From the NCBI GenBank assembly GCA_006503475.1, contig RSEH01000244.1:1-64000 (forward strand): a DNA stretch of 64,000 nt. Reading direction: 5' to 3'. Position numbers and translations under genes: made by a program. The notes beneath the pieces are model-generated. The model worked only from the letters and a program-made list of their open reading frames with translations, searched no databases and was not told where the DNA came from. Each line of letters begins with the position of its first letter. The stretch's first letter is position 1. Source of the stretch: Stentor roeselii (taxonomy: Eukaryota > Ciliophora > Heterotrichea > Heterotrichida > Stentoridae). Positions 1-10,662 of the stretch are shown here, piece by piece.

Positions 1-872
1 TTTACTCATTCACAATTTATCAAGAAATTGGACTCAGTGTTCTAGAAGCAAAAATATTTACTGTATCTATAGGCCTAACGTATCTAATTTCTAGTATAAT
101 TACAATTCTAATTCTGAGATATGTCAGTAGAAAAGCCTCCTTGATCTATGGCCACTCACTTGTTTGTGCGATTCTCATAGTTATGGGGTTAGTTTCACAG
201 TCTGCAAGTAGCTTGTCTTACTTCCAAGCAGTACTCATAATTATTTACATAGCTTTTTTAATTTCGGTTTGAATGCAACGTTATGGAGCTATATAGGAGA
301 AATTCAAACTGAAAGAGATGTCACTGTTACTGTTTCTTGAAAATTTAAAGCCAACTACGAATAAAATTATATTTAACTAAATAATTAAATTATTCGCATT
401 AGAAACAATCACTTTTTTGTTATATGCCTTTTTTTCAAATAAAATTTATAGAGTACCTGAAATTATATCAAGTGTTGTTTACACGCACTCAGTTCATATC
501 ATTAAAAGTTTTAATTTATTTGATTTCAAAGATTTACCAATCAATTATACTTTCTTCAATTCAAGATTATATTATGTATATATTTATTAGTTTTATAATT
601 TTATTATAAAGAATAAATCTTCGATCAGTATTTCTTTCACTTACATCGCAAATATTTTCATCAACTATACGTTCCCTGTTTCAATTAGTCTTTTTGAAAT
701 TTATTACATTTTCTATTTTTTTGGATTTTGCATGCTTTTAGCAACTATTTACGTTAAGTTTGACACTATTGAAACTAATGAAAAATCCCAAATTAATTTG
801 AAGATTGAGTTGAGCACTAAATCTAATAATATTATTACTGATGAATCTGAAATGATTGAAAATCGAAAATAA
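1..872 (+). pseudogene. MFS sugar-porter gene, 3' part, interrupted by a 301-bp insert
   Basis: This is the C-terminal half of a major facilitator sugar transporter (SLC2-like); its 5' end is outside the window. Translation from base 3 gives hydrophobic helices and a serine-rich loop. The next frame gives FGLNATLWSYIGEI, the family's TM10 'W-Y-x-x-E-I' signature. From base 630 the translation ISFTYIANIF continues into the final two helices and an acidic tail ending at TAA 870-872. Two things break the frame. One is a one-base shortfall in a run of T near 254-259. The other is a 301-bp TA-flanked insert (329-629) whose removal joins DVTV directly to ISFTY in frame. If the insert is removed in vivo and the T run is an assembly error, the gene is intact; otherwise it is a pseudogene. 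The family call is firm and the functional state is uncertain. Confidence 0.7.
329..629. mobile_element. 301-bp TA-bounded insert resembling an internally eliminated sequence or MITE
   Basis: The insert sits inside the MFS transporter frame. It is flanked by TA on both sides (328-329 and 629-630). Its ends are inverted: it begins TACTG and ends CAGTA, five perfect bases with weak similarity beyond. It is more AT-rich than its host gene and has no convincing gene. Exact removal between the two TAs restores the transporter frame. TA-bounded, precisely excised sequences are known in the heterotrich Blepharisma and in Paramecium. TA target duplication is also typical of Tc1/mariner-derived MITEs. 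The sequence alone does not separate these two readings. Confidence 0.55.
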
Positions 873-1392: not shown

Positions 1393-2709
1393 ATGGAATA
1401 TAGATGTTCATATGGTGACTGCCCAGGCAGTCCCAAGCACAGCTGCTCATGTGATCATAGTCTGAAATACTGTGAATTTCACATGGATAAGCATCTGGGT
1501 ATATCCAAAAGCCACTCAATTCGTCCTCTTATAAAGTTAGGAGATCAATCAACATCAAATCTCTTAGCAAAAGAAATGAAAAATTTGTCATCAACAATGG
1601 CCAAAGTAATGCTTACAGGAAAGGAAATGTTTGAAGAAATCTGCAAAAAACTTTGTCAAATTACTGGAGAACTTACTGAAAGACAAGATAAATTAATTGA
1701 GATAGCCTCGAATTTATCTGAAGCAGATTATATCCCTCAGCAATCACTCAAAGATTTAGGTGACTTAAAAATCAAGTTCAAAAGTTCTGAGGAATTCAAG
1801 AAAGTTGTTGAAGACCATTTTTCTAATGATACCACTTCAGTCGATTTCTCCCTTTTCAGTGATGATATCAAGAATATCATGAGCCATTTGCAGCAGAGCA
1901 ATATTTTGTTAGAAGAGGTCAGAAATCAATCCGAGCAGGATAAAAAGGCTAGAGAAGATATCAAAATTAGACTTGAAAAGATAGAAAACTCAAAGCTTCA
2001 GATGGAACAAAACATAAAAAGTACTCTTCATGTATTTGACTCTGAAGCTCGCGAACGAGAAAGGAGATTCACTTCAAATGATAAGACCCAAAATTTGCAG
2101 GATCGAATTCAAGTCTTAGAACAGTTAATTGAGATACAAAATAATGCTATTGAAGAGGTTTATAGTAAGTACAATAGTACTGTTTGTGGACTAGCTGCTC
2201 AAAATGATCTACACCAAAGCCAGGATAAGAAAATGAAAGAATTTAAAGAAAAATCTGAAAATGATATCACTTTTCTGTATAATCAACATTTCTTGATGAT
2301 TCAACAAAAAATACTTGAAGCTAATCAAATTTTAGAGAATAATTTGAATCAGCACAGTGAACAAATTGAGAAAAGAGAAGAAGATTTAAGGGTATTCTTT
2401 AAACAACGGATATATGAAATTAATGAAAATTTCAACCTGTTTTGTGAAAAGATTACAGAAGACTCTCAGTTATTAAATCAGGAGATACAGATACAAATTA
2501 ATCGATTTGATAAAGAATTTGGAATAAATGTTAGAAGAGAAATTGATTATTATAAACAACTTAAAAAAGATGAAGCAGCTAGAAATCAAAGAGAAATTGA
2601 AAGAAGAGATTGGAAGAGCAATAAGGGAAACAGGAAAAGAAAAAATGATAAAAAAGAAGCTGGAGAATTAGATAGAGTACAAAGTGGTTTTTATGATTAT
2701 AACTATTAG
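1393..2709 (+). CDS. B-box-like zinc/coiled-coil protein
   Basis: A 438-residue protein. The first 41 residues carry a Cys/His cluster (C5, C10, C18, C20, C27, H30, H34, H41) whose C-x2-H-x3-H-x6-H end resembles a B-box zinc finger. Most of the remainder, about residues 50-400, is charged and heptad-like, which suggests long coiled coils. The tail is very basic (KGNRKRKNDKKEAG). The arrangement is reminiscent of TRIM-like scaffold or E3 proteins, but no RING is present, so no enzymatic role is assigned. The gene at 3752 shares the same N-terminal Cys/His spacing and is probably a diverged relative. The start is the first ATG, preceded by AATAA. Confidence 0.75.
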   Translation: MEYRCSYGDCPGSPKHSCSCDHSLKYCEFHMDKHLGISKSHSIRPLIKLGDQSTSNLLAKEMKNLSSTMAKVMLTGKEMFEEICKKLCQITGELTERQDKLIEIASNLSEADYIPQQSLKDLGDLKIKFKSSEEFKKVVEDHFSNDTTSVDFSLFSDDIKNIMSHLQQSNILLEEVRNQSEQDKKAREDIKIRLEKIENSKLQMEQNIKSTLHVFDSEARERERRFTSNDKTQNLQDRIQVLEQLIEIQNNAIEEVYSKYNSTVCGLAAQNDLHQSQDKKMKEFKEKSENDITFLYNQHFLMIQQKILEANQILENNLNQHSEQIEKREEDLRVFFKQRIYEINENFNLFCEKITEDSQLLNQEIQIQINRFDKEFGINVRREIDYYKQLKKDEAARNQREIERRDWKSNKGNRKRKNDKKEAGELDRVQSGFYDYNY

Positions 2710-3751
2710 AAATTATAGATATAATGTGTATTTTTTATGAATAATTAGTACCCTTAATTCCTATTATAATATAAGGATCACTTCAATAGCTACTGCTTAA
2801 AAAAAATTAGTCATTAATTCCTTTTTAAGCAAAAATAGAAATTCTGTATAGATAGTGGAATTCAACATGAAAGTCCAGGACGAGAGCATGAAGTTTTTAT
2901 CAGGGGTTCAATCAAATATAGACTATTAAAGTAAGCCTGGAATCTCTAGGGCATGAAATTTAAAAATGCTAATCTTTCATAACTTTAAATTCAAAATTAA
3001 GCATTAATAATTTAAATAATTAGTACTTTCTCATGGGTCAAATCTGAGAACTCCTAAAACCTTTTAGGACTATATATTTGAAGACTAGACACTAAACAAT
3101 CTTTCAATTCACAACTTGAGACAGTTATATATCACATTGTTCTAATTTTGTTACTATTACTAATTTCAAAATAGACCTAACATATTTTCATATCGATTAT
3201 ATTTTTGAATAAAGGAAATCTGAGCAGCTAAGCAACTCATCATTTTTATCGATTGATTCAAATTGATATCGCACTTGGTTCAATTTTCAATAATAATAAT
3301 TGTCTAAAAACTTCTTGACAGTTGAAAAGCTGGAGATTCATGGATAGGAAAAATTAAAGATATTTTGTGAAATATGACTAAGGGCAGAAAATAGATTCGA
3401 TCAAATCAATGATGCATCATGGGATTCGCGAGGACCTATTATGAGTAATCCTCATTTTTTCAATACATTTGATCCAAACGTATCTCTGCATCGCAATCCT
3501 AAACATCCCCATGCTCATATATAGACGCCAATATGTTTGGTCCTATTTTTGCTAATAAATATATACTACAGAGAGTGCATCTATCATATATGACTCGCTC
3601 ATAAATATTACCTTAAGTCTTGCAATCCTTTCACTTTCATGCTTTTAAGTTAATTAAGTTAATATAATTTAAATTTAACCTTGTTGCGCTTTCTTTTAAT
3701 ACTAATAATCTTCCTTATAACTAATTTTATCAAATTTAAACAATAATTAAT
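2710..3751. other. 1-kb gene-poor AT-rich interval with possible decayed coding scraps
   Basis: No full gene is visible. Two short stretches look more protein-like than the rest. One, at about 2858-2929, is open for roughly 24 codons. The other, at 3378-3524, is open for 48 codons and contains NPHFFNTFDPN. Both lack a supported start and a recognisable family. They may be remnants of genes like those on either side. Confidence 0.35.
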
Positions 3752-5805: not shown

Positions 5806-7857
5806 ATGGTAAATTACAGATTTATTCGTCTCGAGCAAATTTTCAATTTTATAGAAGAAAGTCAGTTGAATATACCTGGAAATAAAGATCTTCTATCATA
5901 CTATGAGGTTCCCAATGAACATGAAATTGATGAGAATAATGAGCAAAATATAGACATAATAAAAGAACTTAAAGACAAAAAAGGTATCATTTCATGCATT
6001 ACAATGTTTGACGAAGAATATCACCAGCTTGAAGAAACCATTCAACATATAGAGAAAAACTATAAAGAAATCGAACATCAAATTAAAACTATTGTGATTA
6101 TTGTTGACGGTTTAGATAAATTTTATAAAAAAACTAGGGAAAATGAACAATTCAAAAAGTACTTTGACATGGATAAAATTTTGAATTATTTCCATATAAA
6201 TCGAAGCCATATTCAGTTTAACTATGATTCAAATGATAAAATATCTGAAGAGTTTGCTTTGATAGATAAAAAACTGAAGAGTTTAATTGAAAAAGAGCCA
6301 AATAATAAAAACAATTCCGAATATGGTCATCTTTTTTATAATGAAATTGATATTCCTAACGAAAATATCAACATAGCCAACATTTTATTCTTAGTGAAAC
6401 ATGAAAACAAGCGAAAGTTAAACAGTCATTTGTGGTTCTTCACAGGCTTCTGCCGACTAATCCAGCCAAAATACTGTTTTTTAATAGATACCGGTACACT
6501 TGTCCAGAAGAGTGCTTTAAAATACTTTTATGATGAACTTGAGTCAACACGAAACGAAGACTCAAACAATATACCGAAAAGTCAAGTAACAATAGCAGGA
6601 GTTTGTGGAGAAATAGTCCCAATAATAAAAAGCGCAAACTTCACAGATATTTTCGTCCACGCACAAAAAGTCGAGTACAAATTTTCTCATATTCTAGACA
6701 AAGCCCTCGAGTCAGTCCTCGGGTTCATCACAGTTCTTCCAGGAGCCTTCAGCGGTTACAACTACAAATGTTTAGAACCTAATAACCCAAAAGGTCCACT
6801 CTTGCAAGATTACTTCCACTCCTCCAGAAACTCAAGCATGAGTTGCTTTGAGAAAAACATTTACCTTGCGGAAGACCGAGTCCTTTGTTATTCTTTAGTC
6901 TCAAGTAAAAACAGCGCGAATATTTTAAGCTATGTCTCGAAAGCCAAGGCGGAAACTGATGTTCCAACCGAATTGTCCAAGCTTCTGCTGCAGAGGCGAA
7001 GGTGGATCAATGGGTCTTGGTTCGCCATGCTCAACTCAATTCAAATATTAGCACAAATATGCAGATCTGGGCACAGTCGCTGCAGAAAATTCGTTTTTTT
7101 CATTCAATTGATTTACATGGTGCTTAATGCGCTTTATTCTTTTCTCTTGGTTGGAAGTTTTTACCTGGCTTTCAGTATCTGTGTCAGAAAACAGCTGAAA
7201 TCAGAAACTATTGAGAATGATCGAAGCACAACTGGCACAATGCTTGTGCTTTTTTACCTGGCTCAGCTGGTTTTACTGATGATTCTTTCACTTGGCACGA
7301 AAATTAAAAATGTTGAGTCAGCTTTCAACACTATTTCAACGATTTTAGTTTGTTACATGGGACTTTTTATCATGCTTTTGATAGGAATCATCATCAGTAA
7401 TTCCCAGGATATTGTTCTGATGGGTTTTATCGGAGGCACTGCTCTGGGGTTCTTGATCATTATCTGCTCTAATGAGTGTCTTTTTTATACACTTTCAAGT
7501 ATTGTCCACTTTTTGATTGCCACTCCGCTTTACGTTAATGTTTTCACGATTTATGCAATATGCAACATTCATGATGTCACCTGGGGAAATCGACCTGATT
7601 CGCAAAATTCTGAAGAAAGAAGTGAAATCGAGAAGTATAAAAAATTCAGAACTTCTTGGGTCCTTCTTTGGGCTTACTTGAATGGATTCGCTGCTTATCT
7701 CCTCGACGCGCTGGACTCGAAAAGCTCGGATTACGGAAAATATGTTTACTTTGTAGGGTTATTCGGAATGATTGTGCTCATCCTTCGGTTTGCAGGAGGA
7801 ATCATTTATGTTTTTCCTCAAATCTGTTGTGGATGTTTGAGGAGACATCGTAATTAG
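5806..7857 (+). CDS. Chitin synthase-like family 2 glycosyltransferase
   Basis: A 683-residue membrane enzyme that probably polymerises N-acetylglucosamine from UDP-GlcNAc into chitin. An N-terminal cytosolic GT2 domain opens with ISCITMFDEEY. It contains the acceptor-site region VEYKFSH...ALESVLGF, then VLPGAFSGY (about 309-317), the catalytic EDR (about 355-357) and the product-binding QRRRW (about 395-399). These are hallmarks of chitin synthases. After QRRRW come about six or seven hydrophobic segments forming the translocation pore. It is shorter than fungal enzymes and lacks myosin or cytochrome b5 additions. A role in cyst wall or lorica material is an inference; folliculinid heterotrichs are known for chitinous loricae. 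Confidence 0.85.
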   Translation: MVNYRFIRLEQIFNFIEESQLNIPGNKDLLSYYEVPNEHEIDENNEQNIDIIKELKDKKGIISCITMFDEEYHQLEETIQHIEKNYKEIEHQIKTIVIIVDGLDKFYKKTRENEQFKKYFDMDKILNYFHINRSHIQFNYDSNDKISEEFALIDKKLKSLIEKEPNNKNNSEYGHLFYNEIDIPNENINIANILFLVKHENKRKLNSHLWFFTGFCRLIQPKYCFLIDTGTLVQKSALKYFYDELESTRNEDSNNIPKSQVTIAGVCGEIVPIIKSANFTDIFVHAQKVEYKFSHILDKALESVLGFITVLPGAFSGYNYKCLEPNNPKGPLLQDYFHSSRNSSMSCFEKNIYLAEDRVLCYSLVSSKNSANILSYVSKAKAETDVPTELSKLLLQRRRWINGSWFAMLNSIQILAQICRSGHSRCRKFVFFIQLIYMVLNALYSFLLVGSFYLAFSICVRKQLKSETIENDRSTTGTMLVLFYLAQLVLLMILSLGTKIKNVESAFNTISTILVCYMGLFIMLLIGIIISNSQDIVLMGFIGGTALGFLIIICSNECLFYTLSSIVHFLIATPLYVNVFTIYAICNIHDVTWGNRPDSQNSEERSEIEKYKKFRTSWVLLWAYLNGFAAYLLDALDSKSSDYGKYVYFVGLFGMIVLILRFAGGIIYVFPQICCGCLRRHRN

Positions 7858-8649: not shown

Positions 8650-9903
8650 ATGTCTAAGGCCAGTGACAAGCTATTACTTGGTGAAGTGTTGTTACAAGGC
8701 ATCGGAGCCCTAATCAGCTGGAATGCGATCCTCGCATCTCTAGATTGGTACAACAGTCGATTTTTCAATTATCAGCCGGCTTTCTGGATTCCTCTGCTCA
8801 ACTTTTTGCCAGGAATAGTCTTCCAGCCGCTGACGATTCTCTACGGAAACAAGTTTAAGTTTAACACGAGAATCGTGATTCCATACATCATAATCGCATG
8901 CATCCTGATAATGACTCCAATCGTCGTCGAGTTGGCTCCAGGCCTGACAGGTTTCCTGATAATTTGCATTCTGACCCTGGTGATGGGAAGTGCAAACGCG
9001 GTGGGGCAAACAAGCACCTTCGGCTTAGCAGGGACAATGCCAGACAAATACACGAATATGGTAATGCTCGGAAACGGCTTGTCTGGTTTATCAATTGCTT
9101 TAATAAGGTTGATTTGTCTCTTTTCCTTTCCACAAAACTCTTCAGGCTACCTGCTGAGCACAATGGTTTATTTTATAATTTCAGGAGGTACTCTGATTCT
9201 TTGCAGTGTGGCCCAGGTGCACCTAATGAAGAACCCTTTGGTCATTGAGTGTCTTTCTAAAGTCGGGTCGAAAGATGTGCAAAAAGGCGACCCTTTGATT
9301 GATAACGAACTTGACTCTTTTCGAGATACAGAAGGTTATCACCACAAGCCAAAGCCGAAAATAGACTATAAGTTGATTTTCCAGAAGATTTGGCAATATT
9401 TGTTCTTGATATGGCTTAACTATGTGATTACCTTTGGAATGCTTTCTCATGTGGCTTTAGCTACAGATGGAGAGTAATTTTTATTTAGTGGGCTGCCTTA
9501 CCCTGTGTTTTCGACTTTAATGATTTTGTTTTTCAACCTTTTCGATGTGCTTGGAAGGTACACCCCGGTGGTCTTCATGGTGAGCAACTTGCCGAAGCTC
9601 TGGATCATGGTTTTTATAAGGTTTGTCTTTTGGTTCACTTTTCTCATGATCGCTTCTGATGACCCGGCTATGCCGCCTCGAGCGCTTTTTGGAGGACTTT
9701 GGTTTAAACTGATCAATATGGCGATCTACGCCTATACTAATGGCGCCTGCTCTACCTTCATTATGATCTTGGGGCCTTCACGAGCACCTGATGAAAGTAG
9801 AGACAAGGCCGGGTACATCATGGTGACAGGTTTGATTTTCGGTATCTTTTCAGGACAACTGCTCTCTTTTGTGTTCCAAGGAGTGGGCAAAGTGCCGAGT
9901 TAG
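8650..9903 (+). CDS. Equilibrative nucleoside transporter (SLC29/ENT family)
   Basis: Facilitated transporter for nucleosides or nucleobases, 412 residues after splicing, with about 11 membrane helices and a short charged loop near residues 205-235. The segment GSANAVGQTSTFGLAG, followed by a tyrosine-containing loop and GNGLSG, is the ENT-family signature around TM4-TM5. A 15-nt intron at 9474-9488 (GTAATTTTTATTTAG, phase 2) interrupts the frame; splicing joins DG to DGLPYP and continues through the last helices. The length is normal for protist ENTs. Its stop codon lies 12 bp from that of the convergent neighbour. Confidence 0.9.
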
Positions 9904-9915
9904 TTAGATTAACAC

Positions 9916-10662
9916 TTATAAAGATAAAACTAATGAACTTTCGCTTTGTTTTGAGGATTCAGTCAAGCTTTTGTCCTTTTTTCTCCTCACCTCCTGGAAC
10001 TTCCTGACCTTGAGCTCGAGTTTTTCAATATACCCGAACATTTTCTTGTGTGTTCCAACCAGCTCCAGATACTTCATCTCCGTCTTTTTTTTCTGCTCGT
10101 TATTATCCGCCAGGACTTCTTCAAAGTCCTTGATTTTCGATCTCAAAGAGATAAGCTGGTCCTTCACCTTCAGGTACTTGTTGCGAAGCTCAATGTAGCT
10201 TTTTTGAAGATTCGATGAAGACAGGTTGGCGATCTGCACTTGAAGTTCTGTCATTTTTTCTTTGTGATCTTTCCTCAGGTCCTCGATTTCACTTTGGTAG
10301 ACCTCGACGGTGAATAAGTTGTTGTTGCCTTGCGACTTTTCAAGATTTTTTATTTCACCTTTCAAGTATTTTATCTCTGATCGACTCTTCTTCAGGTTCT
10401 CTTCAGAGATTGAGTAAAGGTTTTCAACTTTCAAGTATTTTTTGTTGAGCTCTTGGATTTGCTTTTCTGAAGAACTTTGGATGAAGTTGCCCTGGGCTAA
10501 AAGAGATTGAATCAGTTTATCAGAAGCTTCGAGAAATCTTCTGATTTGGTCTTCTAATGAGGAGGGCTGATGGTGAATGTCTTTGGAGAGGAAGGTGCTT
10601 AATTCTTGTTTTATTAGGTCAAAAGCAGTCAAAAGACTTTGACATTCTCCAGAAATATTCAT
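9916..10662 (-). CDS. Coiled-coil protein of unknown function
   Basis: A 248-residue protein. Residues from about 65 to 235 are almost continuous heptad-like coiled coil (repeated K, E, L, with segments such as LNKKYLKVENLY and LRNKYLKVKDQL that recur as loose internal repeats). The Ser-rich end resembles a flexible tail. No catalytic or membrane feature is present. A structural role, for instance in the cortex or basal bodies, is possible but not shown. Confidence 0.7.
   Translation of the reverse strand: MNISGECQSLLTAFDLIKQELSTFLSKDIHHQPSSLEDQIRRFLEASDKLIQSLLAQGNFIQSSSEKQIQELNKKYLKVENLYSISEENLKKSRSEIKYLKGEIKNLEKSQGNNNLFTVEVYQSEIEDLRKDHKEKMTELQVQIANLSSSNLQKSYIELRNKYLKVKDQLISLRSKIKDFEEVLADNNEQKKKTEMKYLELVGTHKKMFGYIEKLELKVRKFQEVRRKKDKSLTESSKQSESSLVLSL

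Follow-up and report, generated by a model that had tools for sequence, protein, structure and literature searches.

The insert and its host gene

The window, that is, the whole stretch of DNA analysed here, comprises bases 1-64000 of contig C166 in the Stentor roeselii assembly, which totals 44.39 Mb in 522 contigs. It begins within a sugar-transporter pseudogene of the MFS type, whose frame closes with the stop codon TAA at 870-872 and is split by a stretch of AT-rich DNA (Table 1). An earlier note on this DNA had described a TA-bounded unit of 301 bp near 329-629 that breaks the transporter frame, and we confirmed the break. We searched the assembly with window bases 1-900 and found six close transporter copies covering the insert site. 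The DNA search and the six-copy alignment establish that the extra DNA is a real insertion: the same site is empty in the three paralogs on contigs C518, C31, and C439, the insert is present at full length on C166 and C339, and only its right-hand part remains on C98.

Table 1. Features at the left end of the window, with positions in the window and the comparisons that define them
Feature	Position	Strand	Evidence or comparison
Left fragment of the sugar transporter (MFS, Sugar_tr) pseudogene, cut by the contig start	1..330	+	99% to C98:171-506, 92% to C518:15848-16186
Left TA named in the earlier note	328..329	.	sequence inspection
Insert, 298 bp	331..628	+	absent from C518, C439, and C31; present in C339 (89%), partly in C98 (92%)
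Left direct-repeat copy TGTTTCTT, candidate target-site duplication	331..338	+	7/8 bases match 629-636
Left arm of the 12-base AT-rich subterminal inverted match in the insert	360..371	+	pairs perfectly with 594-605 (window copy)
Right arm of the 12-base subterminal inverted match	594..605	-	pairs with 360-371
Right fragment of the transporter pseudogene, to the stop codon	629..872	+	90% to C518:16179-16448
Right TA named in the earlier note	629..630	.	sequence inspection
Right direct-repeat copy TATTTCTT	629..636	+	six-copy alignment, sequence comparison
3' flank matched only in C98 and C339	870..1206	.	78% to C98:899-1229 and C339:3896-4222

The protein encoded on C518 matches PF00083 with an E-value of 2.8e-63. 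Together with six other transporters of the same genome (66 to 30% identity; the seven were chosen from 43 matched places), it aligns through the site without any insert, indicating that the insert is the derived state. None of these seven relatives has an intron at the site either. Because the 3' flank of the window gene recurs on C98 and C339, the duplicated block extends beyond the gene, and no match outside the window was reported for 1207-1392. On C339, the 5' part of the copy (2211-3008) can still be aligned with C518 for 266 stop-free residues, although the 3' part is broken. A further transporter fragment was found at the start of another contig (C119:3-238), with 77% protein identity to C518 over 53 residues, which stops short of the insert site.

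Aligned with the empty paralogs, the extra DNA amounts to 298 bp (331-628), and the 8-bp direct repeat flanking it contains one mismatch. The empty site reads TGTTTCTT in C439 and TATTTCTT in C518, and the overlap between the BLAST pieces of the window on C518 consists of precisely these 8 bases. The TA dinucleotides on both sides and the TACTG/CAGTA ends were correctly recognised in the earlier note, but the inserted unit is 298 bp with an 8-bp repeat instead of 301 bp from TA to TA. Likewise, removal between the two TAs joins the fragments in the right frame as had been proposed, but the product is one codon short in comparison with the three empty paralogs: the join reads VTV-ISF, and the corresponding residues are LTLTISF in C518 and SVTVSF in C439. 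An 8-mer repeat with at most one mismatch at an offset of 298 was found at 85 of 63,680 window positions (0.13%), and 62 of 9,095 trials in the window (0.7%) gave one when nine registers were allowed. The TA-to-TA arrangement with three more inverted bases no further than 5 bp from both ends was reached in 67 of 5,787 window trials (1.2%). Each signature is thus infrequent but not exceptional by chance, and neither would be compelling by itself; it is the empty sites that settle the boundary.

The insert is richer in AT than its host, as the earlier note had observed, with 20.1% GC against 33.6% in the left and 25.3% in the right gene flank; the intergenic DNA at 870-1392 has 23.1%. In line with the note, no coding content was recognised in it. 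The longest open stretch in the window insert has 69 codons, a length reached by 14 of 400 Markov shuffles, and that of the C339 insert has 62 codons (47 of 400). For the 69-codon stretch, the sole Pfam match fell under the family cut-off (E 0.04) and the sole PDB match had an E-value of 2.5, neither of them significant. An Rfam search of the window and of 300-660 gave no match, and folding of 329-630 as DNA revealed no notable structure (z -1.56, with 7 of 100 shuffles folding as well).

Decay of the carrier copies

The copies carrying the insert bear other lesions. At the T run 254-259, the window copy is one base shorter than all five others, which breaks the frame a second time if it is not a sequencing error; the C339 copy has lost 46 bp upstream, and the C98 copy shows three gapped codons and a stop. 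Among the empty paralogs, no in-match stop was found in C518 or C31, and one in C439. Although the counts are small, the dN/dS ratios among the carriers are 0.66 (window-C339), 0.78 (window-C98), and 0.75 (C339-C98), compared with 0.20, 0.12, and 0.13 among the empty paralogs C518, C439, and C31. Intermediate values of 0.41-0.54 were obtained for the carriers against C518.

We counted 15 nonsynonymous and 5 synonymous changes private to one carrier, and 4 of each kind common to all three carriers against C518 and C439. The even ratio of the shared changes and the dN/dS of 0.41-0.54 to C518 indicate that constraint was present over part of the history. The private changes fit neutrality and are improbable under the constraint of an intact gene (P 4e-4), where the expected nonsynonymous fractions, 0.36 for constraint as in intact genes and 0.77 for neutrality, were set by hand and the substitution counts are small and blurred by gene conversion. 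The suggestion in the earlier note that the host gene is decaying is therefore supported by both its lesions and its relaxed constraint.

The synonymous divergence allows the insertion to be placed in time. Since dS is 0.035-0.064 among the three carriers and 0.17-0.20 from the carriers to C518, the insertion dates between the split from C518 and the splits among the carriers. With gaps disregarded, the copies of the insert are 94-96% identical to one another, a level inside the 92-99% span of the gene flanks, and the insert was thus most likely present before the copies split.

The C98 copy has changed further. Left of the insert it is 99.1% identical to the window, and right of the insert it is 97.5% identical to C339 and 92.0% to the window. 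This pattern, within C98:1-10000, suggests a mosaic that switches near the insert, produced by gene conversion or possibly by an assembly join. C98 is also missing 145 bp of insert sequence that lie between a pair of TGTTT repeats (window 331-335 and 476-480), a gap that looks like an ordinary microhomology deletion, not excision at TA.

Origin of the insert

We consider the most probable explanation to be a single old transposition-like insertion that took place before the three copies split and was then passed on through duplications within a decaying gene family, with a probability of about two-thirds. According to this reconstruction, AT-rich DNA of 298 bp (290 bp plus an 8-bp target duplication) would have entered a sugar-transporter gene once, when that copy had already separated from C518 but C166, C339, and C98 had not yet diverged, most likely through a transposition-type staggered cut of 8 bp. 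The source may have been a small non-autonomous DNA element without detected kin in the assembly, or captured DNA. The insert would have halted the reading frame, and the gene would then have lost constraint. Duplication of the block would have followed, along with some mixing, probably through gene conversion, and further damage. The insert most likely has no present function. The mismatch in the repeat, the lack of a longer terminal inverted repeat, and the lack of a second locus count against this explanation. Single insertions in duplicated pseudogenes are common in eukaryote genomes. The insert is derived and frame-breaking, and it sits in a host under relaxed constraint. In its inheritance by duplicates, its deletions, and the relaxed constraint on its host, it does not differ in any essential way from such insertions.

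The earlier note had proposed looking for other copies with the same ends, and this search returned nothing beyond the duplicated locus itself. No further insert locus was detected in 44.4 Mb by DNA search with the 301-bp and 298-bp units, the latter at E-values up to 10, although such a search skips simple repeats and very common words, and distant or low-complexity kin may escape it. Patterns of 26 bases from the left and right ends of the insert, with 3 mismatches allowed, and an nhmmer profile built from all three copies, run against the window and 57 loci (238 kb, with much overlap among the loci), likewise hit only the three known places in the own genome and in the loci searched, respectively. 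A single locus fits a unique captured fragment as well as the sole survivor of a small family of elements.

A more specific alternative is that the insert is a true MITE, belonging to a numerous set of short elements with inverted repeats that a transposase has mobilised in this genome. We regard this as unlikely, even though its size, AT-richness, lack of a recognised gene, and 8-bp direct repeat would all suit such an element. A plausible target-site duplication is present, at 8 bp with one mismatch and backed by the empty sites, but several genomic copies are not: the insert occupies one locus and its duplicates in the assembly, also at E-values up to 10 and with the end patterns, and a lone locus would be unusual for a MITE. 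The MITE proposed in the earlier note as an alternative therefore gains little support, even though its decaying host does. A perfect 12-base inverted match near both ends of the window copy, equalled between the outer 45 bases by only 1 of 500 Markov shuffles, argues for an inverted-repeat element; however, it consists of A and T only and is subterminal, lying 29 and 23 bases inward from the two ends of the window insert, and the longest perfect subterminal match in the C339 insert is 8 bases. At the very ends of the insert we found no inverted repeat beyond TACTG/CAGTA.

The genome has transposase genes of a family known for duplications of this size, which speaks for a transposition-like insertion in general as well as for a MITE. 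The DDE_Tnp_IS1595 domain (PF12762) has 12 matches in the genome, including C3:29252-29659 and C339:26858-27268, and the six best of these 12 lie in open frames of 385-473 codons with no stop in the match. Merlin elements, whose transposases are of this IS1595 type, make duplications of 8-9 bp according to an excerpt of PMC8101967. The insert resembles Merlin or IS1595-type transposons and their non-autonomous derivatives in the size of its duplication and in the presence of transposase genes of this family in the genome. Unlike these, it has no long terminal inverted repeats, and it does not start with the terminal GG with which Merlin ends begin in the same excerpt (PMC8101967), so that the size fits and the ends do not. 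It also has no meaningful similarity to the four IS1595 loci that we examined, where the best match spans 21 bases with an E-value of 0.039. One of these four loci has an imperfect AT-rich inverted pair flanking the gene on both sides (23 nt, 78%), and the other three have none around it. In Stentor coeruleus and S. roeselii, genes of the IS1595 type are given as 381-425 aa, akin to the frames found here. That excerpt describes such Stentor genes as probably domesticated and without terminal repeats (PMC8101967), which counts against their having moved the insert. BogoMITE of Blepharisma, derived from Pogo/Tigger, is comparable as a short non-coding element in a heterotrich, but it is reported with about 8,000 copies and TAA/TTA duplications (excerpt of PMC9942856), in contrast to the single locus and 8-bp repeat of the insert. 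A search for PF13843, the PiggyBac-type excisase, gave no match in a run in which the controls likewise matched nowhere.

The other origin put forward in the earlier note was an internally eliminated sequence (IES): a TA-ended germline insertion that is normally cut out in macronuclear development and has here remained wholly or partly in somatic DNA. The TA on both sides and the TACTG/CAGTA ends point in this direction, and the insert shares with the TA-bound IESs of Blepharisma stoltei their length range and a position in the coding sequence of a heterotrich-like genome. In the excerpted account of Blepharisma, about three quarters of the IESs are TA-bound, terminal direct repeats of other kinds are found in 6,566 more, and the IESs have a median length of 255 bp (PMC9942856). 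The single locus is also compatible with an IES, because a somatic assembly would not contain the remaining members of a family confined to the germline. Nevertheless, the comparison of the paralogs does not support this interpretation, and we judge it improbable. Removal of a TA-bound IES leaves exactly one TA at the empty site, but the TA-to-TA unit of 301 bp is 3 bp too long for the empty paralogs. Many Blepharisma IESs have non-TA terminal repeats (PMC9942856, in part), and the odd boundary alone therefore leaves the case open. All three assembled copies of the lineage, however, keep the insert wholly or partly, and no precisely empty sister was found among them; the gap in C98 is bounded by TGTTT repeats and not by TA sites. 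Nor does the host gene appear to evolve as one routinely restored by excision, which would be under purifying selection: as far as the small counts allow, the carriers have dN/dS of 0.66-0.78 and additional frame breaks. Low GC is no trait of IESs in Blepharisma either (33.3% vs 33.5% in the excerpt of PMC9942856). In contrast to the B. stoltei IESs, the insert persists, wholly or in part, in the three assembled lineage copies, has an 8-bp-repeat boundary, and resides in a decaying host, and it is known here from assembled contigs alone.

A variant of this idea, to which we also give only a slim chance, is that the insert represents a germline element of Stentor, all of whose kin have been removed from the soma. 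This non-excised copy would then be a rare visible member that, lacking a proper TA boundary, killed the gene. If true, such an element would offer a glimpse of normally eliminated Stentor DNA, and if many relatives were shown in Stentor germline DNA, the insert would provide a way into the study of programmed DNA elimination. Stentor mating, and hence genome editing, is described as hard to study (PMC9942806, in part). Among the papers listed for Stentor together with IESs or the micronuclear genome, the titles and abstract openings contained no description of a Stentor IES. The insert is most likely an ordinary insertion rather than DNA awaiting programmed removal. The case is a clean example of testing a suspected eliminated sequence with paralogs from one assembly, and it cautions that in an AT-rich genome a TA-bounded insert is not necessarily an IES, even if its removal restores a frame.

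Two further explanations are far less probable. Since the contig starts inside the gene and the C98 mosaic switches near the insert, an assembly artefact might be suspected, but the full insert is found on two contigs at 89% identity and part of it on a third, for which a single join error is insufficient; we consider this very improbable. A spliced intron is even more remote. An AG at 627-628 precedes the right flank directly, and GT occurs at 320, 326, and 332, but none of the three GT..AG pairs tried joins the correct frames. A spliceosomal intron runs from GT to AG, and its removal keeps the frame. Heterotrich introns are reported to be 15-16 bp long (excerpt of PMC11441545), whereas the insert has 298 bp. 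Introns of this genome likewise appear to measure about 15 nt: stretches of the form GTAAG..AG peak at 15 nt, with 16 cases against 1-9 at the other lengths from 10 to 60, though looser intron patterns gave no clear length peak. We examined six of these 16 candidates, and each has one frame that stays open over 36 codons or more to either side and meets a stop within the candidate itself.

Reading frames and other features of the contig

Stentor uses the standard genetic code. The longest frames changed little when TGA was read as sense (for example, 1429 to 1429, 1314 to 1319, and 701 to 713 codons). Open stretches of at least 150 codons increased from 48 to 91, a rise of which some is inevitable when a stop is dropped. 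Among the open stretches with 250 codons or more (26 in total), 15 end in TAA, 8 in TAG, and 3 in TGA. Blepharisma, by comparison, reads UGA as tryptophan (PMC9942806, in part). Elsewhere in the window, 5806-7857 contains a chitin synthase-like gene, with matches to PF03142 (E 2.8e-25) and PF01644 (E 2.1e-18). At the right end of C166, positions 9557-9961 of the terminal locus hold a short AT-rich unit repeated in a minisatellite-like array, recognised by eye and by its self-match.
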